From positions 1 through 64,000 of the forward strand of contig NZ_JAKVIL010000001.1 of NCBI RefSeq assembly GCF_022601675.1: 64,000 nucleotides of DNA, in the 5' to 3' direction. How positions within the stretch are numbered: position 1 is the first letter of the stretch; every line of letters starts with the position of its first letter. Of this stretch, positions 32,852 through 62,053 are shown piece after piece. The notes below the pieces were generated by a model that did not search any database, had not been told where the DNA came from, and saw only the letters and a program-made list of their open reading frames with translations. Source of the stretch: Ancylobacter gelatini. GTDB lineage: Bacteria > Pseudomonadota > Alphaproteobacteria > Rhizobiales > Xanthobacteraceae. A program made the translations under genes and the position numbers.

Positions 32852-33682
32852 ATGCAGGTGAACGACACATCCGCCCCCATCCGGTCTGCCGCCCGCATCG
32901 CGCCGGCGACCGAGCCGATCATCAGCGTGCGCGACGTCGTGGTCGGCTTCGGCGACCGCATCATCCTCAACGGCCTTTCGCTTGACGTGATGAAAGGCGA
33001 GATCCTCGGCTTCGTCGGCGCCTCGGGCGGCGGCAAGTCGGTGTTGACGCGCACCATTCTCGGGCTGGTGCCCAAGCGTTCGGGCACGGTCGAGGTGTTC
33101 GGGCAGGACCTCGACACACTGAACTTTGCCGAGCGGCGGGCGTTGGAACAGCGCTGGGGCGTCCTGTTCCAGCAGGGGGCATTGTTCTCCTCGCTCACGG
33201 TGAAGCAGAATATCCAGTTCCCGATGCGCGAATATCTCCAGATGTCGCAGCAATTGATGGACGAAATCACCATCGCCAAGGTTGAGATGGTGGGTCTCCA
33301 GCCGGACGTCGTGTCCAAGTTCCCCTCGGAACTTTCCGGCGGCATGATCAAGCGCGTCGCGCTGGCGCGTGCGCTCGCGCTCGACCCGGAAATCCTGTTC
33401 CTCGACGAGCCGACCTCGGGGCTTGATCCCATCGGCGCCGGCGAGTTCGACGAGTTGATCGCGACGTTGCAGCAGACTTTGGGGCTGACCGTATTCATGG
33501 TAACGCACGATCTGGACAGTCTTCACACGGTCTGTGACCGCATCGCCGCTCTTGGCGAGGGCAAGGTGATCGCGGTCGGGCCGATCGAGACCATGATGGC
33601 GTCCCGCCATCCCTGGATCGTCTCCTATTTTCACGGCAAGCGGGCACGAGCGGCCGGCTTCGCAACTGAAGGGCGTCGCTGA
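32852..33682 (+). CDS. mlaF: MlaF-family ABC transporter ATPase
   Basis: A 276-residue ATP-binding cassette. Walker A is GASGGGKSVLTRT, the Q loop is LFQQGALFSSLTV, the signature is LSGGMIKRVALARAL, Walker B is EILFLDEPTSGLDP and the switch histidine is in VTHDLDS. It powers the MlaE-type permease encoded 10 bases upstream. The GALFSSLTV stretch is typical of the Mkl/MlaF group. Confidence 0.96.
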   Translation: MQVNDTSAPIRSAARIAPATEPIISVRDVVVGFGDRIILNGLSLDVMKGEILGFVGASGGGKSVLTRTILGLVPKRSGTVEVFGQDLDTLNFAERRALEQRWGVLFQQGALFSSLTVKQNIQFPMREYLQMSQQLMDEITIAKVEMVGLQPDVVSKFPSELSGGMIKRVALARALALDPEILFLDEPTSGLDPIGAGEFDELIATLQQTLGLTVFMVTHDLDSLHTVCDRIAALGEGKVIAVGPIETMMASRHPWIVSYFHGKRARAAGFATEGRR

Positions 33683-33691
33683 GACCGGATC

Positions 33692-34738
33692 ATGGAAACA
33701 CGCGCCAACTACACCATCATCGGCCTGTTCACGCTCATCGTTGTGGGTGCGGCCTTCGGCTTCGTCTGGTGGTTCACCGGGCAGGGCAGCCGCGGGCCGC
33801 GCACCGAATATCAGGTGGTGTTCAGCGGGCCGGTGAAGGGGCTTCAGACCGGCTCAGCCGTCACCTTCAACGGCATTCCGGTCGGCGAGGTGATGAAGCT
33901 GGACTTCGACCGCGTCGATCCGCGCAAGGTGATCGCCACGATCGCCGTGCAGCCCGACACGCCGGTCAAGTCGGACACCAGCGCCACGCTCGATTCGCAG
34001 GTGCTCACCGGCCTCGCTTCGGTCGGCCTTGCCGGCGGCTCCGCCAATGCCGCGCCGCTGCCGGCGCCCCCGGCCGGGCAATTGCCGACGATCGACGCCG
34101 ACGCCTCGGCGATCCAGGACGTGATGCAGGGGGTGCGTCAGGTAATGGGCCGCGTCGACGACATTGCGCGCCGCATCGACGTGCTGCTGACCGACAACGA
34201 GTCCAAGATCAATTCCATCATCGACAATGTCGACAAGTTCAGCGCGGCGCTCGGCAAGAACGCCGACAGCATTGACGGCCTCGTCGCCGATGTCAGCAGC
34301 GCGGCGCGTCGCATCGACCAGCTCGCCGGCAATCTCGACAAGACGGTGGCCGCGATCGATCCCGACAAGGTGCGCGCCACGGTGAACGACATCAACGCCT
34401 TCACCGGGCGGCTCGACGGCATGGCCTCCAAGGTCGACACCATCCTCGACAATGTGAACGCGATGACCACCAGCGAGGAAGGCAAGGGCATGTTCGCTCA
34501 GATTTCCGGCGCGGCAGAGGAAGTGCGCAAGCTGGCCTTCAATCTCGACGCGCGGACCGCCGAGCTGTCGAAGAACCTGAATCAGTTCACCGGGCCGGGG
34601 CTGCGCCAGTACGAAGCGCTGGCGGCGGACGGTCGGCGGACGCTGGCAGAGATCGAGCGCGTGTTCCGCAATCTGGAGCGCAATCCCCGCCAGTTCATCT
34701 TTGGCGGGTCGTCTGTTCCCAGCTACAGTGGCCGGTGA
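33692..34738 (+). CDS. mlaD: MCE-domain lipid-transport protein (MlaD family)
   Basis: A 348-residue protein anchored by one N-terminal helix (about residues 8-28, IIGLFTLIVVGAAFGFVWWF). The MCE domain follows at 38-120 (VVFSGPVKGLQTGSAVTFNGIPVGEV), then a long helical region rich in NVDKFSAAL/NLDKTVAAI-type heptads. MlaD forms a hexameric lipid tunnel in the periplasm; the long helical tail is longer than in E. coli MlaD and like the Mce/PqiB-type tails. It sits 9 bases after mlaF. Confidence 0.95.
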   Translation: METRANYTIIGLFTLIVVGAAFGFVWWFTGQGSRGPRTEYQVVFSGPVKGLQTGSAVTFNGIPVGEVMKLDFDRVDPRKVIATIAVQPDTPVKSDTSATLDSQVLTGLASVGLAGGSANAAPLPAPPAGQLPTIDADASAIQDVMQGVRQVMGRVDDIARRIDVLLTDNESKINSIIDNVDKFSAALGKNADSIDGLVADVSSAARRIDQLAGNLDKTVAAIDPDKVRATVNDINAFTGRLDGMASKVDTILDNVNAMTTSEEGKGMFAQISGAAEEVRKLAFNLDARTAELSKNLNQFTGPGLRQYEALAADGRRTLAEIERVFRNLERNPRQFIFGGSSVPSYSGR

Positions 34739-34740
34739 AC

Positions 34741-35388
34741 ATGGGGCGTTCGAGGGAATCGGGCAGGGGCATTGGCGTGAATTCTAACAAGGCATGCCGC
34801 AGGGCGGCAGGCATCGGACTGACCGTTGGCCTCGCGCTGCTGGGCGGAGGCTGTGCGTCGGTGCTCGGCAGCAAGCCGGTGCCGACCTTCGATCTCACCG
34901 CACCGACCGATTTCCGTGCGCCGCGCGCGGGCCGGGGACAACTCGTCGTGGCCGCGCCCACGGCGCTGCAGGTGCTCGACACCCAGCAGATCGTGGTCGA
35001 GCCGGCGGCGGGGCAGATCAATTATCTCGGCGGTGCGCAGTGGGCGGACAGCCTGCCGGCACTGTTCCAGGCCCGGCTGATCGAATCGTTCCAGAACGGC
35101 AGCCGCGGTAGCTCCGTCGGGCGGGCCAGCGACGGCATCGTCGCGGAATACGCGCTGCTGACCGACATCCGTTCCTTCGGCCTCCAGACGTTCCAGGGCA
35201 ACGAGGCGGTGGTCGAGGTGTTCGCGAAGATCGTGCGCGCTTCCGATGGCCGCATCATCGGTTCTCAGCTGTTCAAGGCGCGGGCCCCGGCCAGCGGCAC
35301 GGCCGGCCCGGAAGTCACGCGCGCGCTGGATGAGGCCGCCGACACGGTGCTCGTCGAACTGGTCGACTGGGCGTCCCGGCGGTTCTGA
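34741..35388 (+). CDS. ABC-type transport auxiliary lipoprotein (Mla/PqiC-like)
   Basis: A 215-residue lipoprotein. The signal reaches Cys38 in LALLGGGCAS, and the mature part matches the transport-auxiliary lipoprotein family (TFDLTAPTDF, VVAAPTALQVLDTQQIVV, and ALLTDIRSFGLQTF). It probably serves as the outer-membrane partner of the MCE system in place of MlaA. Three starts are possible: GTG 34735 overlapping the mlaD stop, ATG 34741, and GTG 34777. The last has AGGGG about 8 bases ahead and gives a normal-length signal peptide, so it may be the true start. Confidence 0.88.
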   Translation: MGRSRESGRGIGVNSNKACRRAAGIGLTVGLALLGGGCASVLGSKPVPTFDLTAPTDFRAPRAGRGQLVVAAPTALQVLDTQQIVVEPAAGQINYLGGAQWADSLPALFQARLIESFQNGSRGSSVGRASDGIVAEYALLTDIRSFGLQTFQGNEAVVEVFAKIVRASDGRIIGSQLFKARAPASGTAGPEVTRALDEAADTVLVELVDWASRRF

Positions 35389-35730: not shown

Positions 35731-38700
35731 TCAGTCGAAGCGACCGGCGGCATGGGCGAGCAGAGTGTAGACCTTGCCGGTGTCCGAGGTCAGGTAGGTG
35801 CGGGTCATCTGCTGGCTGCGATCGTCGCGAGCCACCTGTTCCAGCAGACGCTCGAACTCGACGATGTAACGGTCCACCGTGTCGCGGAATTCGAGATCGC
35901 GGCGGTACTTGCGGCGGATTTCCTCGAAGGTCTGCTGGCCCTGCATGGTGTAGAGCCGGCGGGTGAACACGTTGCGCTCACCCTTCTTGTAGCGCTCCCA
36001 CAGATCCACGGCGGCCTCGTGGTCGATCATCCGTGCGATGTCGAGCGAGAGCGAATCCAGCGACTCGATGGTGTGGTGCACCGGCCGCTCGACCTGCCCG
36101 CCACGCGCCTCATTGCCGCGCGCCGGGGCACGGGACGAGGCCGGGGCGAAGGACTGGCCGTCGCCGTCCGATGCGCGGGCGAGCAGATCGGAGAGCCAGC
36201 CGCTCTGCTGGCCTTCCGCGCCGCGCGCGGGCGGATTGGCCGGGGCCGGGCGGCGGCCGGCCGGGGCCTGCTGCGGAGCGGGGGCGGCGGGGCGGCGGAC
36301 CGCCGGCTCATATTGCTGCGCGCCGGCAGGCTGGCGCGGGGCGACCGGCGCACGCGGCGGCTCGCTGCGCGCCGCCGGCGCGGCGACTCTGGCCGGAGCG
36401 GCGGCCGCAACCGGACGCGCCGGCTGGCTCGTTGCCGGCTGAGCGGCGGGCTTGGCGACCGCAGCTTTGGCGGCGGCAGGCTGCTGAACCGGAGCCTGGA
36501 CCCGCGCCGGCGCGGCGGCAACCGGCGCCGCAGCGACCGGAGCCGGCGCGGGGGGAGCAACGGCAACCGGCTGCGCGGGAGCGGGAGCCGGGGCCTTGGC
36601 TCGCGGCGGTTCGGCGTCGAAGGCGCGGCCATGACGGGCCACGATCTCGTTGAGTTCAGCGAGTGCCTTGATCTGCTCGGCGACGGTTCGGCGCATCGCG
36701 GAGGCGCTGGCTTCGGTCTCCTCGGGCAGTTCCATCACCCCGCGCTTGAGTTCCTCGCGCGTGGTCTCCAGCACGCTGTGAATGTCGGCGGCGGAGGCGC
36801 GCAGTTCCTGCGTGGCCGTGGTGAAGCCCTGATTAGCCTGCTCCATCAGCGTCTTAACTTCGCTGACCGCCTGATCATAGGTGGCGCGGAGCTGGGCGAG
36901 GGTACGCTCACGCTCGGCATCAGCCGTGGCGCGAATCTCTTCCTGCTGCTTGACCAGCGTGGAGGTTGAGTTCTGCGCCGTGTCCAGAATGGCGCGGGAG
37001 ATTTCCTCGGCTCGGCTCTCCGCCTTGCCGAAGGTTTCCTCCAACCGGCTGGTGTACTGCGCGACGCGCCCGTCCAGATCGGAGGTGCGGGCGTTGATCT
37101 GCTCGGCGAGGGCGAGCAGGGCCTCGTGGCGCCCGCCCAGTGTCTCGTCGAGGTTCTCATGCGCCGAGCCGAGCGCAGTGGCGACGGCGGTGATGACGCC
37201 TGCCTGCTCGTTGAAGCTCTGGCTGAGCGAGGCCACGTCCTGCAGCACTTCGGTCGAGACAGAGCGCAGGTTGCGGATCTGTTCGTCCATGCGGCTGGAG
37301 GCGAGGCGGCTGGCCTCCTCGACATTGGCCACGGTGCTGTGGAAGGAGCCGAGGCGATCGGTGATGGCGCTCTCGATCGCGGCCAGATTGGTCGCGGAGC
37401 CGGCAAGCACGTCCTGAAGCTGGACGTTGACGCTGCCGAGCCGCTCCAGAAGCGTGGAGACGTCGTTGGTCAGCGCGTCATTCGTCGCGGCGATCTCGGC
37501 GACGGCGGCGCGCCCGCTCTGCGCGATCGCGTCCACAAGGCCGGAGCCGCGCCCGTCGAGGGCTGCGGTGAACTCATCGCCGAGGCGCTGGAGTTCGGAC
37601 GAGGCATATTCCGTCGTCTGGCGCGCGACGTCGACGATGGAACTGCCACGGCCTTCCAGATTGGCCGCAAGCTCGTCACCGAGGCGCTGGAGTTCGGAGG
37701 AGGCGAATTCCGTGGTCTGGCGCGCGGCCTGGACGATGGAGCTGCCACGGCCTTCCAGATTGGCAGCCAACTCCTCGCCGAGGCGCTGGAGTTCGGAGGA
37801 CGCGTATTCCGTCGACTGGCGGGCCGCTTCGACGATGGTGTTGCCGCGCCCGTCAAGGGCAGCGGTCAGCTCATCGCTGAGGCGCTGGAACTCGGAGGAC
37901 GCATAGTCCGTGGTCTGGCGCGCGGCGTCGATGATCGAGCTGCCACGGCCTTCCAGATTGGCGGCCAGTTCCTCACCAAGGCGCTGGAGTTCGGACGAGG
38001 CGAATTCCGTGGTCTGGCGCGCGGCGTCGACGATGGAACTGCCACGGCCTTCCAAATTGGCGGCAAGCTCGTCGCCGAGGCGCTGGAGTTCAGAGGACGC
38101 GTATTCCGTCGACTGGCGGGCGGCTTCGACAATGGTGTTGCCGCGCCCGTCAAGGGCGGCGGTCAGTTCATCGCTGAGGCGCTGGAACTCGGAGGACGCA
38201 TAGTCCGTGGTCTGGCGAGCGGCGTCGATGATCGAGCTGCCGCGGCCATCCAGCGTTGCGACGAAGCTGTCGCTGACCCGCTGGAGTTCGGCGGAGGCGA
38301 ATTCGGCGGTCTGGCGCGCGGCATCGACCATGGAACTGCCACGCCCGTCGAGCGCTCCGACGAACTCCTCGCTGACGCGCTTCAGTTCGGTGGAGGTGAA
38401 CTCGGCGGTCTGGCGGGCGGCATCGACGATGGTCGAGCCCCGCTCGTCCAGCGCACGGACGAAGGTCTCGGTGAGCTGGGCGAACTCCGCGGAGGTGACG
38501 CTGGAGGTCTGGCGCACCGCGTCGACCAGGGTCGAGCCGCGTCCATCGAATTCGGAGATAAGCGCGTCGCTGGCGCGGGCAATCTCGTCGGCAACCTGGC
38601 CGCTGACCTGACGAACAGTGTCCACGAGGTTGGAGCCGCGTCCGTCGAATTCGGTCAGCAGATTGTCGCCGGCACGGGCGATCTCGCCGGTGACCTGGGT

Positions 38701-41700
38701 GCTGATTTCGCGCAGGGCGGTGACGACATCGCCGCTCTGGCCGTTGAGGTGGGTCAGCAGGTCGTCGCCAACGCGGGCCATCTCGGTGGCGGTCGCGTTC
38801 GAGGAGCGCTGGAAGGCGTCGAGAATATCCGCTGTGCGGGCTTCCACGGTGCCGAGCACGTCCTCGCTGAGGCGGGTGATCTGTTCCGCCCGGCCGCCGG
38901 TCGCCGCCTCGAAGGCCGAAACGATGACCTCGGAACGCTGCTCCAGCGTGTGCAGAAGGTCTTCGCTGGCCCGCATGACATCTTCGATCGCCCCGTTGCG
39001 GGTGGTGTCGAGCGCGCGGACCAGATTGTCACGATGGTCGTCAATGGCCGTCAGCAGGTCGCCGCTGGCGCGGGTGATCTCGGTGGTGATGCCGATGCTG
39101 CGGTCTTCGAGCGCAGTCAGCAGGCCATTGCCGCGCTCGTCCATGATGCGCGCGATTTCCTCGGTGCGCTGGTCGAACAGGGTCGAAACCTCGCCGGCGC
39201 GGTCGGCCAGCGTGCGGCTCACATTGTCGACCAGCGAGGTGAGGCTCTCCTCGATGCCGCCGGCCTCGTTGCGAAGCTGGCCGGCCACGGCGCCGATGCG
39301 CTGGCCCAGCAGGTCGGCCATGGCCGCCCCACGGACCTCGACCGAAGTGGCGACGCTTTCGATGCGCCCGACCACGGTCTCCTCGAAGCGGTTGACACGG
39401 GTGTCCAGGCTGGAGGCGATCTCCGCCGCGCGGCCGGCGAGCACGCGGTCGGCATGCTCGATGCGCTGGGACAGCTGTTCGGTGACGGCGCTCGCGCGGT
39501 CGTCGAAGAAATTGGTGAGGACGTCGAGCGACCGGTTCATCGCGTCGTTCGCGTTGCGGGCACCGTCGGTGAGGGTGCGGGCCGCCACGTCCATGCGGTC
39601 GCTCATCGACTCGGTCACGGCTTCCGCGTGCTGGCTGAAGAAGCCGTCCAGCACGTCCAGCGACTTCTCCATCGCCTCGGTGGCAAGGCGCGCGCCTTCG
39701 CTCATGGTCTGGGCGAATTCGGTCGTGCGGCCGGCGAGCGTCTCGTTGAGGCCCTCGACACCGCGGTCGAGCACACCCTCGATATTGGCGAGGCGCAGGT
39801 CGAGCGAGGAGGCAATCTGCTCGGCCTTGATCGTGACCTTGTCGTCGAAGCCGGAGAGCGAGACGTCGATACCGCGCGAGATGGTGTCGACCTGTTCGTT
39901 GATGCGCATGACGATGCCGTTGCCGTGGGTCTGCAGCACGGTATCGAAATCGCGCAGGCCGTCGACGATCTGCCGGCCGAGCATCGCGGAATCCGCTCCG
40001 ATGCGCTCGGCAAGTTCGCCGCCGCGGACCGAGAGCGTCTCTTCCAGCGCCTTGAGGCGGTTGTCGAGCATGTCGCGGACGGAATCGCCCTTGTTGCCGA
40101 TCTCGTTGGACAGGCCTTCGGCGGTCTCGCGGAACTGCTCGGTGACGCGGGTGCCGCGCGTCGCGATGGTCTGGGCCACCTCGGCGCCGATCTGGGAGAG
40201 CTGGTCGCTCATGGCGTTGCCGCGATAGGCGAGGTCCTGCGACAGGCGCTCGGCGGATTCGGCGAGCGCGTCATGAACGTCGGCGCCGGCATGCGAGAGC
40301 TGATGGACGACGCGCTGGCCGGTCTCGCCGAGCAGGCGCTCCAGTTCGCCGCCGCGCACGGCGATGGTCTCATAGATGCGGTTGCCGGTATCGGCGATGC
40401 GGTCGGCAAGGTCGTCGCCGCGCACGGTGATCGTCTCGGCGACACGCGAGCCGGTTTCCTCCAGCTTGCGCACGACGTCCCCGCCGCGCACCGACATGTC
40501 GAGAACCAGCGCTTCGCCGGTGCTCTTCAGGGTCTGGTTCACCTCGGTGGCGCGGACGGCGATCTCGTCGGCGAGGCGCGTACCGGTATTCACCAGCGCG
40601 TCGGTGATCTCGTCGGAGCGGGCGGTGAGCGTCTCGGTGAGGTTCAGCGTGGTGGCGGTGAGCTTCTCGCCCATCTCCTCGGTGCGCGTGGTGACGACGT
40701 TGGAGAGCTCGGACGCGGTCTCAAGCAGCCGGGCGCCGATCTCGTCGGTGCGCGCGGCGAGATTCGTGGTGAGGTCGGCGGTGACGCCGGACAGGCGGGT
40801 GGTGATCTCGTCGGTCTGGGTGGTCAGCGTCGTGATCAGGTGCTCGCTGGCGTCCGAGAGGTTGGTGTTGACCTCGGAGCCGGTGGCCTGAAGGCGATCG
40901 ATCAGGTCGCCGCCCTTGTCGGTGAGGGCGTCGATGATGGTGTCGCCGACGCGGCCGAGCGCCAGCGTGATGTGCTCGCCCTTCTCGGACAGCGTGCCGG
41001 TCACGCGATCAGCGGCCTCCATCACCGTCGAGTTGATGCGCTCGCTGACGCCGTCGACCTCGTGGGAGAACGAGTAATGCGCGCTGGTGATCGCCTCGCG
41101 GATGTGGTCGGCATGGCTGAGAATGCCCTCGCGCTCGTGCTGGAGGCGCTCCAGCAGGTTGCGCATGCGGGCTTCGTTTTCCTCATAGGCCTGTTCGAGG
41201 ACCGAAACCTCGCTGCGGACCATCGCTTCCAGCTCGCCGGCGCGGGCGATGGTGCGTTCCATGCCGTCGCCGATGGACGCCACTTCGCGGCGCACCACCT
41301 GGCCGACATTCACGACATCGTCGGTTGCGACCGGAGCGGGCTCGGCGAGGCGCATGGCGACCTGCGCCATGGACTGCGCGACCATCCGCATTTCCTGCAT
41401 GCGGCTGACCATGGAGCCGAGCACGAAGAACAGGGCCGGCGGCACGGTGAGGCCGGCGACCAGCGCCAGCAGCGAGGGCGAGCTCAGAAGATCGCTGAAC
41501 GAGGTCTGGGTCGCGGAGAGGTTGGTATAAGCCAACAGAGCCCCGGCGCCGATCCAGGCAGCCGAGGCGGCGCCAGCGACGATATAGGGTGTGGGCGACG
41601 GGCGGCGCTGCAGCGCGCCGAGAAGCTGGCCTATGGTCTGGCGGTCGTCATTGGCCGCGGGGTGGCTCGGCGCCGCGGGGCGCTTGGCATTTTTCCGGGC

Positions 41701-42207
41701 GCGCTTCGGCTCCTCCTCGACGGCGGGGGCCGGGGAAGCCATCGGGGCGGGAACAACCGGGGGAAGGGCGAACGCGTCGTCCTGCGCCTCATGCGCGCCG
41801 AGGGGCTGCGTGTCGTCGAGCTGGTCGGCGACCTCGGCGAATTCGTGCTCGAAATCGAAGTCCACCTGATCGGGCGAAGGCATTTCGATCTCGGGAGCGG
41901 CGGCCACCGGTTCCGGCTCGCCGGTGAGGACGACCTCGGGGGCCTCGTCGATATGACCGAACAGGTCGCTCTCGGTGAGGAAGGGCACGCCTTGGTCAGA
42001 GCCGAGCTCGTCGTCGAAATCCGAGCGCGTGCGCACCTCGATGCGCGGCGCCAACGGCTCGCGTGCAGGGGGCAGATCGAAATCGTCGCGGGGCTGGTGT
42101 GCCGCGTCGTCGTCCTGCGTGTTCAGGTCCAGGCTCAGGGCTTCCTCGATTGCCGACAGCGCGGCCTCCGCGGGATCCTGATAAACCTTCTTCGTGCTCG
42201 TCGACAT
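35731..42207 (-). CDS. giant coiled-coil polar-growth protein, GPR/RgsE-like
   Basis: A 2158-residue protein. Residues 1-200 are acidic and probably disordered. Two transmembrane helices lie near 207-228 and 242-265. Residues of about 270-1800 are one helical region made of 11/33-residue apolipoprotein-like repeats, with near-identical 33-residue units around 1290-1560 (GRGSSIVDAARQTTEFASS type). A Pro/Ala-rich linker (about 1860-2020) precedes a conserved C-terminal helical domain (from about 2049, LDIARMIDHEAAVDLWERYK). Size, membrane placement and layout match the growth pole ring protein GPR of Agrobacterium and RgsE of Sinorhizobium, scaffolds for unipolar growth. Homology is inferred from layout without an alignment. 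It is a single gene with its own terminator. Confidence 0.8.
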   Translation of the reverse strand: MSTSTKKVYQDPAEAALSAIEEALSLDLNTQDDDAAHQPRDDFDLPPAREPLAPRIEVRTRSDFDDELGSDQGVPFLTESDLFGHIDEAPEVVLTGEPEPVAAAPEIEMPSPDQVDFDFEHEFAEVADQLDDTQPLGAHEAQDDAFALPPVVPAPMASPAPAVEEEPKRARKNAKRPAAPSHPAANDDRQTIGQLLGALQRRPSPTPYIVAGAASAAWIGAGALLAYTNLSATQTSFSDLLSSPSLLALVAGLTVPPALFFVLGSMVSRMQEMRMVAQSMAQVAMRLAEPAPVATDDVVNVGQVVRREVASIGDGMERTIARAGELEAMVRSEVSVLEQAYEENEARMRNLLERLQHEREGILSHADHIREAITSAHYSFSHEVDGVSERINSTVMEAADRVTGTLSEKGEHITLALGRVGDTIIDALTDKGGDLIDRLQATGSEVNTNLSDASEHLITTLTTQTDEITTRLSGVTADLTTNLAARTDEIGARLLETASELSNVVTTRTEEMGEKLTATTLNLTETLTARSDEITDALVNTGTRLADEIAVRATEVNQTLKSTGEALVLDMSVRGGDVVRKLEETGSRVAETITVRGDDLADRIADTGNRIYETIAVRGGELERLLGETGQRVVHQLSHAGADVHDALAESAERLSQDLAYRGNAMSDQLSQIGAEVAQTIATRGTRVTEQFRETAEGLSNEIGNKGDSVRDMLDNRLKALEETLSVRGGELAERIGADSAMLGRQIVDGLRDFDTVLQTHGNGIVMRINEQVDTISRGIDVSLSGFDDKVTIKAEQIASSLDLRLANIEGVLDRGVEGLNETLAGRTTEFAQTMSEGARLATEAMEKSLDVLDGFFSQHAEAVTESMSDRMDVAARTLTDGARNANDAMNRSLDVLTNFFDDRASAVTEQLSQRIEHADRVLAGRAAEIASSLDTRVNRFEETVVGRIESVATSVEVRGAAMADLLGQRIGAVAGQLRNEAGGIEESLTSLVDNVSRTLADRAGEVSTLFDQRTEEIARIMDERGNGLLTALEDRSIGITTEITRASGDLLTAIDDHRDNLVRALDTTRNGAIEDVMRASEDLLHTLEQRSEVIVSAFEAATGGRAEQITRLSEDVLGTVEARTADILDAFQRSSNATATEMARVGDDLLTHLNGQSGDVVTALREISTQVTGEIARAGDNLLTEFDGRGSNLVDTVRQVSGQVADEIARASDALISEFDGRGSTLVDAVRQTSSVTSAEFAQLTETFVRALDERGSTIVDAARQTAEFTSTELKRVSEEFVGALDGRGSSMVDAARQTAEFASAELQRVSDSFVATLDGRGSSIIDAARQTTDYASSEFQRLSDELTAALDGRGNTIVEAARQSTEYASSELQRLGDELAANLEGRGSSIVDAARQTTEFASSELQRLGEELAANLEGRGSSIIDAARQTTDYASSEFQRLSDELTAALDGRGNTIVEAARQSTEYASSELQRLGEELAANLEGRGSSIVQAARQTTEFASSELQRLGDELAANLEGRGSSIVDVARQTTEYASSELQRLGDEFTAALDGRGSGLVDAIAQSGRAAVAEIAATNDALTNDVSTLLERLGSVNVQLQDVLAGSATNLAAIESAITDRLGSFHSTVANVEEASRLASSRMDEQIRNLRSVSTEVLQDVASLSQSFNEQAGVITAVATALGSAHENLDETLGGRHEALLALAEQINARTSDLDGRVAQYTSRLEETFGKAESRAEEISRAILDTAQNSTSTLVKQQEEIRATADAERERTLAQLRATYDQAVSEVKTLMEQANQGFTTATQELRASAADIHSVLETTREELKRGVMELPEETEASASAMRRTVAEQIKALAELNEIVARHGRAFDAEPPRAKAPAPAPAQPVAVAPPAPAPVAAAPVAAAPARVQAPVQQPAAAKAAVAKPAAQPATSQPARPVAAAAPARVAAPAARSEPPRAPVAPRQPAGAQQYEPAVRRPAAPAPQQAPAGRRPAPANPPARGAEGQQSGWLSDLLARASDGDGQSFAPASSRAPARGNEARGGQVERPVHHTIESLDSLSLDIARMIDHEAAVDLWERYKKGERNVFTRRLYTMQGQQTFEEIRRKYRRDLEFRDTVDRYIVEFERLLEQVARDDRSQQMTRTYLTSDTGKVYTLLAHAAGRFD
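37585..38235 (-). repeat. 99-bp tandem repeats with a 297-bp higher-order duplication
   Basis: Inside the GPR-like gene, consecutive 99-bp units encode 33-residue repeats beginning GRGSS or GRGNT. Three units (types SSIID, NTIVE, SSIV) occur as a block twice, exactly 297 bp apart. For example CTGGAACTCGGAGGACGCAT occurs at 37885 and again at 38182. The near-identity at DNA level, synonymous sites included, indicates recent duplication or gene conversion. Confidence 0.85.
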
Positions 42208-42589
42208 CGGCCTTAGCCTCCGGTCCGTACGCTACTCCGACCGGCTTACGCCGTCGGGCCGGGGTTGTGAGGGACGAACCTGCCTGGCCTTGCCGGAAAC
42301 CGATCCGACGCCGGGGAACTCCCCGGAGGTGCAATGCCAAGCAATGTCAGTCCACCGCAGCTTTATCCTACGCTCTTGCGCTCAAAAAATGGAACTGGGG
42401 TTAACAGGCGTCTTGACGTTATCGTTAACGAGCTGTTCACCATGCCGGTTAAGGAACGATTCGGATCCGTAGCAAAGCTGACGGGTGGAGGGTTTCCGCG
42501 CTGACGAGGTGCTGGCATTCGTGCGCGGGGGTCGCTATCTAGAAGACCTCACCTTGTAGTTCTTCAAGTTTGTTCAAAATCCGGATGCC
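42208..42589. other. 382-bp divergent promoter region (GPR-like gene / ferredoxin)
   Basis: No gene is supported. The region should hold promoters for the minus-strand giant gene and the plus-strand ferredoxin. Three TTAA(C) half-sites cluster at 42401-42405, 42425-42429 and near 42450, next to TTGACG at 42413. They resemble CtrA half-sites, but none forms the full TTAA-N7-TTAAC arrangement. Confidence 0.4.
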
Positions 42590-42910
42590 ATGCCCAAGGT
42601 TACCTATATAGACGCCGCCGACGTCTCTCGGACGGTGGAGGCAGCCGTCGGCTCCACTGTGATGGAAGCGGCCATCCGCAATGGCGTGCCCGGCATCGAT
42701 GCCGAATGTGGCGGTGCCTGTGCCTGCGCGACCTGTCATGTCTATGTCGACGACGCGTGGGCCGCGGCGACCGGCGAGCCGGGGCCGATGGAAGAGGACA
42801 TGCTCGACTTCGCCTCGGACGTGAAGCCGACCTCCCGCCTGTCCTGCCAGATCAAGCTGACCGACGCGCTGGACGGGCTGGTGGTGCGCACGCCCGAACA
42901 TCAGGGCTAA
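42590..42910 (+). CDS. fdxB: 2Fe-2S ferredoxin, adrenodoxin type
   Basis: A 106-residue ferredoxin. The cluster ligands follow the adrenodoxin/Isc spacing: Cys40, Cys46 and Cys49 in [14 protein letters not shown], and Cys86 in RLSCQIK. An additional Cys44 lies inside the loop. EEDMLDFA and the acidic helix before it are typical for docking to P450s or Isc partners. It is a single gene, not part of an isc operon here. The symbol is the one commonly used in this order and is tentative. Confidence 0.93.
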
Positions 42911-42923
42911 GGCCGGGCCTGGC

Positions 42924-43961
42924 CTATTCCCGCGCCTTGGCCTCCTCGTCCTTCACCTTCTGCGGCAGCAGGCCCGACGCCACATCGCTGAGCGCCGGGG
43001 CCGGCAGGGCGGCGAAGGGCAGGGGGCGCGTCACCTCGATGGCGGCCAGGCCGAGCCGCGCGGTCAGCAGGCCATTGACCACGCCCTCGCCGAGCCGGGC
43101 CGAGAGCTTGGCCGCGATGCCGTGGCCGACCACCTGCTGGATGAGCGAATCCCCCGCCGCCATGCCGCCCGTCACGGCCAGATGGGCGATGACCTGCCGG
43201 AACAGCCGGAACATGCCCAGAGCGCCCGGGCGCCCGCCATAAAGCAGCGCCAGCCGGCGGATCAGACCCACGGCGGTGATGAGCACGAAGAACAGGTCGA
43301 CCGCCGCGCGGGGCGACACTGCCGTGACCACCGAGACGCGCTTGGCGGCGGATGACACCAGCGCCGTCGCTTCGGCGTCGAGCGGAGCCATGAGGTGGCG
43401 CTCGGCGAGCCGCACCAGATCGGCGCCGTCGATGATCTCACCAAGATGCCCTGCCAGTTCGGTGCGTGCACGGAACAGGCGCGGCGAGGTCTTGGCGAGG
43501 GCGATAAGCTCGCGCGTCACCGCCTCCGCGCGGGGCCGGTCGTCCTTCTCGATGGCGAAGGTGGCATCCTCGCGCAGCTTGTTCAGCGTGCGCAGCCGCA
43601 TCAGCCCGAACATTTCGCGCCCGAGAATAACCAGGCTCGCCAGTATGAACGCGCCGGCAAAAGCAAGGCCCGTATAGCCGAGCCAGTCGGCGCGGGCGAA
43701 CAGGTCCTCGATCAGCTTGGAGACGGCGAGGCCGACACCCATGCTGACAAGGCCGCCCAACCCGGTCCAGAACAGCGTGCCCCAACGCGAGCCCTTGGGG
43801 GGAGGGGCGGGCAGCGGGATGTCCTCGACGGTTTCCGGCAATTGCGGGGCGGGAGTTACGATCACGGCGCCGCGCGGGGCGGGACGGCCGTCCTCCGCCA
43901 GCACGACGCCGGGGTCGTCGAGACGGAACGCCTGCGGGCGTCGATGGGTGCGCTCGTTCAT
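42924..43961 (-). CDS. ycjF: YcjF/TIGR01620-family membrane protein
   Basis: A 345-residue protein with a Pro-rich N-terminal tail, two membrane helices (TLFWTGLGGLVSMGVGLAV and YTGLAFAGAFILASLVILG) and a C-terminal DUF697-like region (AVDLFFVLITAVGLIRRLALLYGGRPG). It is the standard partner of YcjX and lies 4 bp after it. The pair is stress-linked in enterobacteria and its biochemical role is unknown. Confidence 0.9.
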   Translation of the reverse strand: MNERTHRRPQAFRLDDPGVVLAEDGRPAPRGAVIVTPAPQLPETVEDIPLPAPPPKGSRWGTLFWTGLGGLVSMGVGLAVSKLIEDLFARADWLGYTGLAFAGAFILASLVILGREMFGLMRLRTLNKLREDATFAIEKDDRPRAEAVTRELIALAKTSPRLFRARTELAGHLGEIIDGADLVRLAERHLMAPLDAEATALVSSAAKRVSVVTAVSPRAAVDLFFVLITAVGLIRRLALLYGGRPGALGMFRLFRQVIAHLAVTGGMAAGDSLIQQVVGHGIAAKLSARLGEGVVNGLLTARLGLAAIEVTRPLPFAALPAPALSDVASGLLPQKVKDEEAKARE

Positions 43962-43965
43962 GTGC

Positions 43966-45453
43966 TCACTTCAACCGGTCGCCGATCAGGAATTCCATCG
44001 CCCGATCGAGGCGGATATGGGGAATCGGCAGGGGAAGGCCGGCGGCATTGCGCTCCACCAGCGGTGGGCGGAAGCGCAAAAAGCGGAAATCGCCGCCATC
44101 CGCCTCCGATAGCCCCTTGAAGCCGAGCTTGGGATCAAACAGCTCGGCGGGGCTCTCCGGCAGGTCGCCGGGGAACACCGCCGCCTCTGCCAGCCCGTCG
44201 AACTGATCGGCACCGTATTGCCCGGCTTCCGGCACGCCGATGATCGCCGGCAGGCTGGCGCGACCGCGCTTCACATCGGCCTCGCGGGTCGCCCGCACGG
44301 CCGAGAGCGCCACCACGTCGATCTCCGCGCCCGCGCCTTCCGCCCGCGCCAGCGCCCGCTCGACGAGGCGGCGCAGGATCGCCTCCAGACGGTCATGGCT
44401 GCCATGGTGCAGATGATCGGCCTTGGTGGCGGCGAACAGCACCCGGCCGATGCGGTGGCGGAACAGGGCGGAGAGCCAGGAATTGCGCCCTGTGCGGAAT
44501 GCCGCGAGGATACCATCGAGCGCGGCTTCGAGGTCGGCCAGCGCCGCCGGGCCGGCATTAAGCGCGGTCAACAGGTCGATCAGCACGATCTGCCGGTCGA
44601 GCCGGGCGAAATGATCGCGGAAGAACGGACGCACCACCCTGTCCTTATAGGCCTCGTAGCGCCGCTCCATCATTGCGGCGAGTGAGTTGGGCGGAGCGGC
44701 GTTGCCGTCATAGAGGTCGATCGGCGCAAAGGTGAGGGCGGGCGACCCCGCAAGGTCGCCCGGCATCAGGAAGCGTCCGGGCGGCAAAAGGCTCATCGAC
44801 ACCTGCTCGGCGCGGCAGGCGGCGAGATAATCGGTGAACAGCGAGGCGAGCCGCCGGGCAGCGCCCTCATCGGCGGGCGCCTCCGGTTCGACATGGTTCA
44901 TGGCGTCCAGGAACGGTGCCGCCAGCGCGCGGCGGGCCGGGGCGCGGGCGAGGCGCAGGCTCTCCGCCGCGAAATCGGCATAGGAGCGCTCAAGCAGCGG
45001 CAAATCGAGCAGCCACTCGCCGGGATAGTCCACGATGTCGAGCGTGAGCACGCTCTTGCCGCCCCGTGCGGGGGCATAGTCGATGGCAAGGCGCAGTTCG
45101 CTGATGCGGCTGGTCGATTCCGGCCAGCGGCGCTCGTCGACCAGTGTGGCGAGATGGCCCTCATAGTCGAAGCGCGGCACGGCGTCGTCCGGCTGCGGCT
45201 CCAGCCGCGCTCCGGCGATCCGTCCCTCATGCATGGCGCGGAACACCGGGAAGCGGCCGCCGCGGGTCAGCGCATGGATGAGTGCGGTGGTGAACACGGT
45301 CTTGCCCGAGCGCGACAGGCCGGTAATGCCCAATCGCAGGGTCGGATTGGTCAGTTCCTCCGCGCGGTCCAGCAATGTCAGCGCGGTCAGGCGGGCCTCG
45401 TCGATCAGGCTGTCGTACCAGGACGGCAAGAGCTCAATCCTCCGCGACGCCAA
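43966..45453 (-). CDS. ycjX: YcjX-family P-loop protein
   Basis: A 495-residue protein of the YcjX/DUF463 family with the P-loop GLSRSGKTVFTTALIHAL near residue 45, DIVDYPGEWLLDLPLL as the Walker B-like region, and LFAATKADHLHH as a guanine-specificity-like motif. It is probably a GTPase acting with membrane partner YcjF. Its start overlaps the 3' end of the upstream phosphatase gene by 20 bp, so the three genes form an operon. Confidence 0.93.
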   Translation of the reverse strand: MASRRIELLPSWYDSLIDEARLTALTLLDRAEELTNPTLRLGITGLSRSGKTVFTTALIHALTRGGRFPVFRAMHEGRIAGARLEPQPDDAVPRFDYEGHLATLVDERRWPESTSRISELRLAIDYAPARGGKSVLTLDIVDYPGEWLLDLPLLERSYADFAAESLRLARAPARRALAAPFLDAMNHVEPEAPADEGAARRLASLFTDYLAACRAEQVSMSLLPPGRFLMPGDLAGSPALTFAPIDLYDGNAAPPNSLAAMMERRYEAYKDRVVRPFFRDHFARLDRQIVLIDLLTALNAGPAALADLEAALDGILAAFRTGRNSWLSALFRHRIGRVLFAATKADHLHHGSHDRLEAILRRLVERALARAEGAGAEIDVVALSAVRATREADVKRGRASLPAIIGVPEAGQYGADQFDGLAEAAVFPGDLPESPAELFDPKLGFKGLSEADGGDFRFLRFRPPLVERNAAGLPLPIPHIRLDRAMEFLIGDRLK

Positions 45454-60427: not shown

Positions 60428-62053
60428 CTATCCCTGCCGGTCGAGCACGAAATGGCGGGCGGAGCGGGCGGGAAGCGCGATCATGGCGAAGGGGTCGAAA
60501 TGCGCCGGACCCTCGCCGAGCGGCCCGAGCCGGGTCCGCGACGCATCGAAGCCATAGGCAGCGATGGTGCGGTAACGCTGGTCCAGATGCAGGCGCAGCG
60601 GCAGTTCCTTCGTCGAGCGATTGATCGCGACGACATGGAGGCGTGGGCCATCGACGCCGCCATAGAGCGCGAGTTCGGCCTGCCCCTCATGTTCGAGGTG
60701 CACGCGGCGAGGCGGGAAGGTGCCGCCCTTGCCGTCATAGTCACGATACAGGGCAAAGGCATTGCCGACCTGTCCGTCGAGCGGGCCCCAATGGCAGGCA
60801 TAGGCGACATTGGCCTGCGCGAAGCGGCCGAGCACGTCGGCGACGGCGAGCCCGGTGGCAAGCTGGCCGACGCCGCCGAAATTGAACTCGGTGACCCCGA
60901 GCAGGGTGCCCGGATAATGTTTGGCGATCAGGCGGTTGAGGCTCGGCAGGATCGGCAGCGCGAGCTCCACCTTGTCGCTGACCGGGAGGGCGCGGATCAC
61001 CCAGCTCTGCTCGGCAAAACCGGGTTCGGTAAGCGAGCGCGGGCCGGCGAGCACCGCCTCGGCATGGGCCGGCTCCTCGGTATTGAGCAGGTCGCCGAGA
61101 TTGGATTGCGGGTACCAGTGGACGTCCAGCACATCGAGCAGCCGCGCGCCGAAGGCATCGGAGGCGACGCGGAAGGCATCGAGATAGGCGGCGATGAAGC
61201 TGCCGAAATGCGCGTAATCCGCCCAGTCCGGCGCGTGCTGGAAATTCTGGAACTCGGTGACGCCCCAACTCGCCGGGCCGAACACCAGCGCGTGCGGGTC
61301 GATGGTCTTGATCACCTTCGCCGCCGCGATGGAGCGCTCCAACAGGCTCTTGATGGTCGGCGGCTCCAGTACGATGCGCGGATGGGTTTCCGCCCACAGG
61401 CCCGGCTCGTTGTCGAGCGAATAGGCGCGGATGCCGGTCGGCGTATTCGCGCCGCCGAAGGTTGCCACCAGCCGGCGAATGAGCTGGGGCATGTCGCACA
61501 CCGTCTTGTCGATGGCCGCGAAGGCCTCGGTGTCGGAGGACCAGCGAAGCGGGACGAAGCGCGAGGAGGGCGCATGCTCGGAGACCGGAACCTCACCATT
61601 GGCATCGGCGGCGACGTAGCCGGCGAGCTGCAGCGTGACGAGGCTCTGCGCGCCGCAATCGAGACTGTTGCGGTGCATTTTGGTGATGACGGCAGCGGGC
61701 TCGGCGCGCTGCTCGGGGGCGATGTCGAGGAATTCCGCCATGCCGAGTACATTGGCGTGATACCAGTCCTTCCCGGCGTTCTGGGTGTTATTGGTCCAGT
61801 TGTAGGTCGTCATCAGATTGCCGCCGAGGCGGCGGAACGGCGTGCGCAGCTTCTTGTCGAAGACGACGGACGGTTCGCCACCGACCATGCGGCCGAACTC
61901 GTTGGAGCCGTAGATCAAGGGCGAGATCGGTTCCGCCCGTGCGCCGTCATGGATGCGCACCGAGACGCCGGCCGCACGCGCAGCACCGGAGAGCGTCGTC
62001 GGCAGCAGGGCGGAAGCCAACGCCCCTTTCAGCAGTGATCGCCGTGTTGTCAT
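60428..62053 (-). CDS. Tat-exported GH44-like glycoside hydrolase
   Basis: A 541-residue secreted enzyme. The N-terminus TTRRSLLKGALASALLP is a twin-arginine signal with cleavage near residue 27. The body resembles family 44 endoglucanase/xyloglucanase. The acid/base candidate is Glu216 in YSLDNEPGLW, the nucleophile candidate Glu389 in GVTEFNFGG, with PFRRLGGNLMTTYNWTNN near the start as in that family and a C-terminal beta sandwich (about 450-541). In the middle of an exopolysaccharide cluster it probably trims, releases or quality-controls the polymer. Substrate is inferred only. Confidence 0.8.
   Translation of the reverse strand: MTTRRSLLKGALASALLPTTLSGAARAAGVSVRIHDGARAEPISPLIYGSNEFGRMVGGEPSVVFDKKLRTPFRRLGGNLMTTYNWTNNTQNAGKDWYHANVLGMAEFLDIAPEQRAEPAAVITKMHRNSLDCGAQSLVTLQLAGYVAADANGEVPVSEHAPSSRFVPLRWSSDTEAFAAIDKTVCDMPQLIRRLVATFGGANTPTGIRAYSLDNEPGLWAETHPRIVLEPPTIKSLLERSIAAAKVIKTIDPHALVFGPASWGVTEFQNFQHAPDWADYAHFGSFIAAYLDAFRVASDAFGARLLDVLDVHWYPQSNLGDLLNTEEPAHAEAVLAGPRSLTEPGFAEQSWVIRALPVSDKVELALPILPSLNRLIAKHYPGTLLGVTEFNFGGVGQLATGLAVADVLGRFAQANVAYACHWGPLDGQVGNAFALYRDYDGKGGTFPPRRVHLEHEGQAELALYGGVDGPRLHVVAINRSTKELPLRLHLDQRYRTIAAYGFDASRTRLGPLGEGPAHFDPFAMIALPARSARHFVLDRQG

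Follow-up and report, generated by a model that had tools for sequence, protein, structure and literature searches.

The question raised by this locus is whether a very long gene of Ancylobacter gelatini encodes the growth-pole scaffold known as GPR in Agrobacterium tumefaciens and as RgsE in Sinorhizobium meliloti, and whether its presence means that the organism grows from a pole. The gene (35731–42207), here called gpr, lies in the first 64,000 nucleotides of contig NZ_JAKVIL010000001.1 (RefSeq assembly GCF_022601675.1), and we refer to this whole stretch as the window. Throughout, the order is the Hyphomicrobiales, with Ancylobacter in the family Xanthobacteraceae, and the window's genus was sampled as 25 genomes (G000–G024). 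The listing of open reading frames (ORFs) and their translation bear out the 2158-residue protein reported in a first-pass annotation made from the letters alone; the gene has an ATG start and is on the minus strand, which that annotation did not give (Table 1).

We find that this gene is an orthologue of S. meliloti RgsE and, through RgsE, of Agrobacterium GPR, and judging by the sequence comparisons we treat this as settled, because both ends of the protein match RgsE, the ferredoxin and YcjF genes are common to the two loci, and the distribution of the C-terminal domain agrees. As RgsE reference we used the 2089-codon gene of the S. meliloti Ak57 record CP090106.1, which is annotated as "kinesin" and was assigned by its length and domains and not by locus tag; the published length of RgsE is 2089 amino acids (PMC7327166). 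The first-pass annotation had recognised a GPR/RgsE-like protein and had proposed comparing both ends with such homologues. Against RgsE both comparisons were significant: residues 175–380, the region of the membrane hairpin, are 46% identical over 209 alignment columns (E 1e-48), and the C-terminal part is 57% identical over 174 amino acids (E 2e-60), the C-terminal domain being the best-conserved part of the two proteins. The neighbouring ferredoxin is 68% identical to the one near S. meliloti rgsE over 105 amino acids (E 7e-53), and the YcjF-like neighbour is 56% identical over 188 amino acids (E 4e-70) to an S. meliloti copy that is cut by the edge of its stretch. RgsE (SMc00190) further resembles the Ancylobacter protein in length class, membrane hairpin, hendecad arm (period 3.655 in RgsE), proline-rich linker and C-terminal domain, and YcjF and ferredoxin genes lie nearby in both genomes. 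The two differ in that the strongest internal repeat of the arm is 33 residues in the window and 22 residues in S. meliloti, and in that the S. meliloti ferredoxin gene is separated from YcjF by fol and other genes and from rgsE by an Hpt gene, with neither present at these places in the window. GPR (Atu1348), which we compared by its published description only, has 2115 amino acids, two N-terminal membrane helices, a long helical region and a proline-rich region near the C-terminus (PMC8262873), likenesses that the Ancylobacter protein shares, and it is 42% identical to RgsE (PMC7327166). GPR forms a polar ring, its C-terminus is essential for its function and its loss rounds the cells (PMC8262873). 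The protein is of a kind already known, and the family is extended to one more genus. As a separate observation, CP090106.1 (L118) is labelled as the S. meliloti plasmid pSymB, yet its 3.7-Mb length and its rgsE, fol and cytochrome bc1 genes suggest a mislabelled chromosome.

The two conserved ends reach well beyond the order. The C-terminal domain, of about 128 amino acids, holds DIARMIDHEAAVDLWERYK and was found in all 41 relatives, in 190 of the 199 sampled genomes of the order, and at E 0.001 in 142 of 385 genomes of a class-wide sample; five of these 385 belong to the order and all five are carriers, which leaves 137 carriers among 380 genomes outside it. A model built from 31 sequences has seven helices, with a mean predicted local distance difference test (pLDDT) score of 84. 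No fold in the PDB matched this model at E 0.001 (best 0.17), the best PDB sequence match (E 0.04) was not convincing, matches to PHROG came only at E 0.04–0.08, and the Pfam search of the protein gave no family with its best stretch in this domain, which from the model looks like an undescribed helical domain. At the other end, a profile of the N domain after three iterations recovered 105 of 105 proteins of the order over 850 amino acids and all 41 homologues from outside it, 37 of them including the membrane part and four by the coil only; a single-sequence search found nine of these 41. By profile comparison, the family likeness outside the order is therefore not confined to one end. Counted from the first methionine of the frame, homologues range from 642 to 2994 amino acids overall and from 642 to 2486 in 40 proteins from outside the order.

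The internal architecture agrees with the first-pass annotation. Its Pro/Ala linker and conserved C-terminal domain are both present, the former by composition and the latter by identity to RgsE. It also placed two transmembrane helices near the N-terminus; hydropathy windows fit two putative helices, but the first is weak (1.63, below the 1.7 threshold of a crude hydropathy scan, which gave one helix here), and since both follow some 200 acidic, proline-containing residues they are not at the extreme N-terminus. Between hairpin and linker lies the proline-free arm, where self-identity is 29% at an offset of 33 residues compared with a mean of 8% over offsets 2–139, and where two of every eleven positions are strongly hydrophobic (78% and 71%). 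The net charge is −109 across residues 381–1800, and the median over 103 proteins of the order with arms of at least 500 amino acids is −5.6 per 100 residues. As a single straight helix with a rise of 0.15 nm per residue the arm would be about 230 nm long, and a 330-residue piece of it was modelled as a helix with one break (single-sequence monomer, pLDDT 75).

The rhythm of this arm was measured over the longest stretch of each protein with at most one proline, scanning periods of 3.40–3.85 and dropping stretches below 250 residues and proteins at contig edges. A period of 11/3 (bin 3.645–3.69, median 3.665) was found in 90 of 93 proteins of the order, a set that comprises the window's protein and 20 others from genomes without MreB and otherwise proteins untyped for MreB, and that includes many close relatives. 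Nine proteins from MreB-bearing genomes of the order have periods of 3.62–3.66, three of them in the bin, and 40 proteins from outside the order have a median of 3.575 with none in the bin. The period differs between clades, and we claim no cause for this because MreB changes only twice on the tree. A causal tie between hendecad periodicity and loss of MreB was considered and rejected, as there are only one or two independent pairs on the tree and the MreB-bearing L181–L183 are already at 3.655–3.66.

Does the protein, then, imply polar growth, as the first-pass annotation had it? Calling MreB by the TIGR00904 model at E 1e-60, we found it in 350 of the 385 class-wide genomes (344 over the curated cut-off) and in none of the five members of the order among them. 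Among the 137 carriers of the C-terminal domain outside the order, 130 have MreB, a count cross-read by hand from two tables; the seven without a match are G083, G114, G139, G179, G206, G211 and G256, not all of which are complete. Within the order MreB was found in 23 of 199 genomes (21 over the cut-off), and all of these except G531 also have the C-terminal domain. Rgs and MreB homologues have been suggested to be mutually exclusive (PMC7327166), and our counts disagree with this, at least for this protein. Both within the order and beyond it, alphaproteobacteria that have MreB carry homologues with the two end domains. Presence of the protein alone therefore does not imply polar growth, and that part of the annotation does not hold as worded. 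In A. gelatini itself no TIGR00904 match was found at E 1e-60, which fits the published suggestion, and its one SEDS protein scores 227 bits, below the RodA cut-off of 336.7. What makes polar growth likely here is not the protein alone but the missing MreB, the sub-cut-off SEDS protein and what RgsE and GPR are known to do. We note separately that the order appears to hold two kinds of MreB, one scoring about 507–512 bits (f209/f210) and one about 358–456 bits (f2, f12, f191, f198, f204, f205, f211; one partial at 247). The second kind (sampled at L179, L184–L187 and L190) nests among MreB-less families on the gpr tree, so that MreB may have been regained or unevenly kept.

Taking these results together, we consider it very probable that the gene encodes the Ancylobacter orthologue of the RgsE/GPR growth-pole scaffold. 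The two-helix hairpin would anchor the protein in the membrane, with almost the entire chain on the cytoplasmic side; the arm would form a long helical rod, self-associating through its narrow 11/3 hydrophobic stripe; and the linker would present the C-terminal domain to partners. Rings of such rods at the new pole may focus envelope synthesis in place of MreB, and A. gelatini would do this without a gene-adjacent Hpt protein, unlike most sampled relatives in the order. Several points weigh against this account. The repetitive middle is only 23% identical to RgsE, and the arm's oligomeric state and handedness are read from its periodicity, the modelled piece being a monomer with one break. The genome has three matches to the broad Pfam MreB family over its cut-off of 27 bits (59.6, 29.4 and 29.0), whose frame lengths and scores suggest putative Hsp70 and FtsA-like proteins. 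The family also occurs together with MreB, so that at the molecular level it need not act in growth as such, and a single literature search found no paper on polar growth in Ancylobacter.

The first-pass annotation described the arm as apolipoprotein-like, and it could in principle be a true lipid-binding helix that shapes or recruits polar membrane. The likeness to the apolipoprotein A1/A4/E family PF01442 is an 11-residue periodicity and a score of 161 bits for the whole protein, over the cut-off of 90, and known lipid-bound helices also have 11/3 geometry. A 500-residue piece of the arm scores 106.9 bits, and a shuffle that keeps each residue in its hendecad position, leaving 19% identity to the original, still scores 105.1, whereas a full shuffle and a shuffle in a 7-residue frame give no match. 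The 330-residue piece scores 81.9 bits, under the cut-off, and its three hendecad shuffles score 96.1, 81.7 and 87.7; two full shuffles, one in a 12-residue and one in a 10-residue frame give no PF01442 match, one full shuffle having an unrelated weak match. Because the score is kept in four of four position-preserving shuffles and lost in all six others, the match reports the 11-residue rhythm and carries little or no information beyond it; the shuffle tests revealed no further similarity to PF01442. By itself the match is evidence neither of apolipoprotein ancestry nor of lipid binding. The literature builds on it, and a lipid-related role has been proposed (PMC8262873). The arm also differs from those apolipoproteins in being a proline-free stretch of 1535 residues in a membrane-anchored bacterial protein, and its negative charge and narrow, two-position stripe fit a predicted right-handed coiled coil better than lipid binding. 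We therefore keep the roughly 1500-residue helical region of the annotation, drop its apolipoprotein character, and regard a lipid-binding arm as improbable.

A general new-pole landmark resembling TipN, organising polarity or chromosome segregation, would make polar wall growth an indirect effect and the role in the Rhizobiales a derived one. Homologues with both end domains occur across the Alphaproteobacteria, mostly together with MreB, which speaks for such a landmark, as does the statement that GPR resembles TipN (PMC8546619). TipN, of 882 amino acids, has been called analogous (PMC13170164) and is a new-pole marker acting on chromosome segregation with ParA (PMC10127582). We compared TipN of Caulobacter crescentus by description only, and its published length falls within the range of homologues from outside the order. 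Depletion of RgsE and of GPR strongly alters cell shape (PMC7327166, PMC8262873), which speaks against such a landmark, and on balance we find a landmark of this sort rather unlikely. There is next to no chance that the protein is a long coiled coil of another role (SMC-, ZorA- or kinesin-like) which resembles GPR by composition only: weak matches, below threshold, to the ZorA and SpiroCoCo models of NCBIfam and the "kinesin" label of the S. meliloti gene point that way, but the idea is already refuted by the match of the non-repetitive ends to RgsE and by the agreement of two neighbours.

The Hpt gene that distinguishes the two loci deserves attention. In S. meliloti it encodes an Hpt domain (Pfam Hpt, 37.1 bits) and is divergent from rgsE. 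A profile grown from it was run on 153 gpr loci, some of them truncated, and found a homologue at 80: 70 of the 112 that belong to the order and 10 of the 41 that do not. It is divergent from and upstream of gpr in 77 of these 80, in 75 of them no more than 1.25 kb from the gpr frame. An HxLKG-like phosphoacceptor motif is kept at 73 of the 80 loci; L045, L094, L168 and L156 keep the histidine, L119 (Sphingomonas) and L137 are without it, and the seventh of the remaining loci is L169. Of the solved structures, PDB 2ooc, "Histidine phosphotransferase", comes closest (E 2.3e-15). Sixteen genomes of other families of the order have the Hpt gene in all cases except G027, 13 of the 15 beside gpr and two on other contigs. 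Across the order, 167 of 199 genomes have Hpt at E 0.001, a few of the matches being weak and perhaps embedded in kinases, and the 32 genomes without a match include complete ones such as G447, G456 and G485. Among the matches listed (150 for each gene), 118 genomes have both, within 12 kb of each other in 103 and on different contigs in 15, and in none far apart on one contig. Outside the order, 37 genomes have both the C-terminal domain and Hpt (E 1e-10), within 5 kb in 20 genomes of eight families and not so in 17, a split read by hand from two tables. At 30 loci from outside the order without a recognised Hpt gene, and two with a kinase-type one, the upstream neighbours include no dominant family (at most 4 of 61 proteins), and a query of a plasmid collection with a homologue from outside the order gave no match. 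At L143 and L156, both outside the order, we also observed a frame of about 900 codons that ends in an Hpt-like domain and lies co-directionally 32–63 bp upstream of the gpr-like frame.

Ancylobacter departs from this arrangement. In the window the ferredoxin gene directly follows gpr with no intervening Hpt gene, and 22 of the 25 genomes of the genus, A. gelatini included, have no Hpt match. The exceptions are G003, with an Hpt gene next to gpr, and G004 and G008, whose sole matches are weak and fall within frames of some 965 codons. The gpr loci of Azorhizobium, Aquabacter and Microvirga likewise have no Hpt gene at this place. Relocation of the gene elsewhere in the A. gelatini genome was rejected, as none of the 72 candidates, all of which were scored, matched at E 0.001. 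A 120-residue minus-strand ORF (42539–42901) was also rejected as the missing Hpt gene; neither NCBIfam nor Pfam gives it a match at E 0.001, and the opposite frame is the ferredoxin. The words Hpt, phosphotransfer, histidine and phosphorelay are all absent from the main text of PMC7327166, and in the open-access literature we found no paper linking an Hpt gene to GPR/RgsE or polar growth. We tentatively propose, as something possible rather than probable, that an ancestral alphaproteobacterial module pairs GPR/RgsE, as its scaffold, with a stand-alone divergent Hpt protein, which would link a phosphorelay to the polar ring by docking on the scaffold or by controlling its expression; that the length of the hendecad rod would set the size of the growth zone; and that Ancylobacter would have lost the Hpt protein and kept the rod.

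Table 1. Features of gpr and its neighbours in the window (residue numbers refer to the 2158-residue protein).
Feature	Position	Strand	Basis or remark
gpr/rgsE orthologue, 2158 aa	35731..42207	-	ORF call and RgsE comparison
Acidic, proline-containing N-terminal segment, residues 1-200	41608..42207	-	Composition: 44 D/E, 14 K/R, 24 P
Conserved membrane-proximal N domain, residues 187-400	41008..41649	-	Iterated profile
Putative membrane helix 1, residues 208-226	41530..41586	-	Hydropathy 1.63 (weak)
Putative membrane helix 2, residues 246-264	41416..41472	-	Hydropathy 2.19
Proline-free arm, residues 293-1827, 1535 aa	36727..41331	-	Proline count
Hendecad region of near-constant 11/3 phase, residues 359-1612, 1254 aa, 114 eleven-residue units	37372..41133	-	Periodicity
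99-bp (33-residue) tandem DNA repeats inside the arm	37546..38538	-	Repeat analysis
Pro/Ala-rich linker, residues 1867-2030	36118..36609	-	Composition
Conserved C-terminal domain, residues 2031-2158, predicted all-helical	35734..36117	-	Profile and structure prediction
2Fe-2S ferredoxin, divergent neighbour	42590..42910	+	68% identity to the S. meliloti one
YcjF-like (TIGR01620/DUF697) neighbour	42924..43961	-	56% over 188 aa to the S. meliloti one
YcjX-like (DUF463) neighbour	43966..45453	-	Family match

A 1696-residue ORF on the plus strand (37126–42216) was rejected as a real gene; at E 0.001 Pfam gives it a single match, to the apolipoprotein family, which at 20.5 bits stays below the cut-off of 90, and the frame is probably a shadow ORF, a consequence of high G+C content and repeats. 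Elsewhere in the window, an MCE/Mla-type lipid transport operon (ABC ATPase, MlaD-like protein and ABC_trans_aux lipoprotein) at 32852–35388 on the plus strand stops some 340 bp short of the 3′-end of gpr, which is on the opposite strand, and a glycoside hydrolase family 44 protein is encoded at 60428–62053 on the minus strand.

In conclusion, the comparative results (a family conserved at both ends beyond the polar growers, the rhythm behind the apolipoprotein label, and the Hpt neighbour) weigh more than the addition of a new family member. The family is not confined to polar growers that lack MreB, and its apolipoprotein reading is put in question. The conserved Hpt neighbour could tie cell-cycle phosphorelays to the polar growth ring and, if this is true, Ancylobacter would be a natural experiment on the loss of Hpt.

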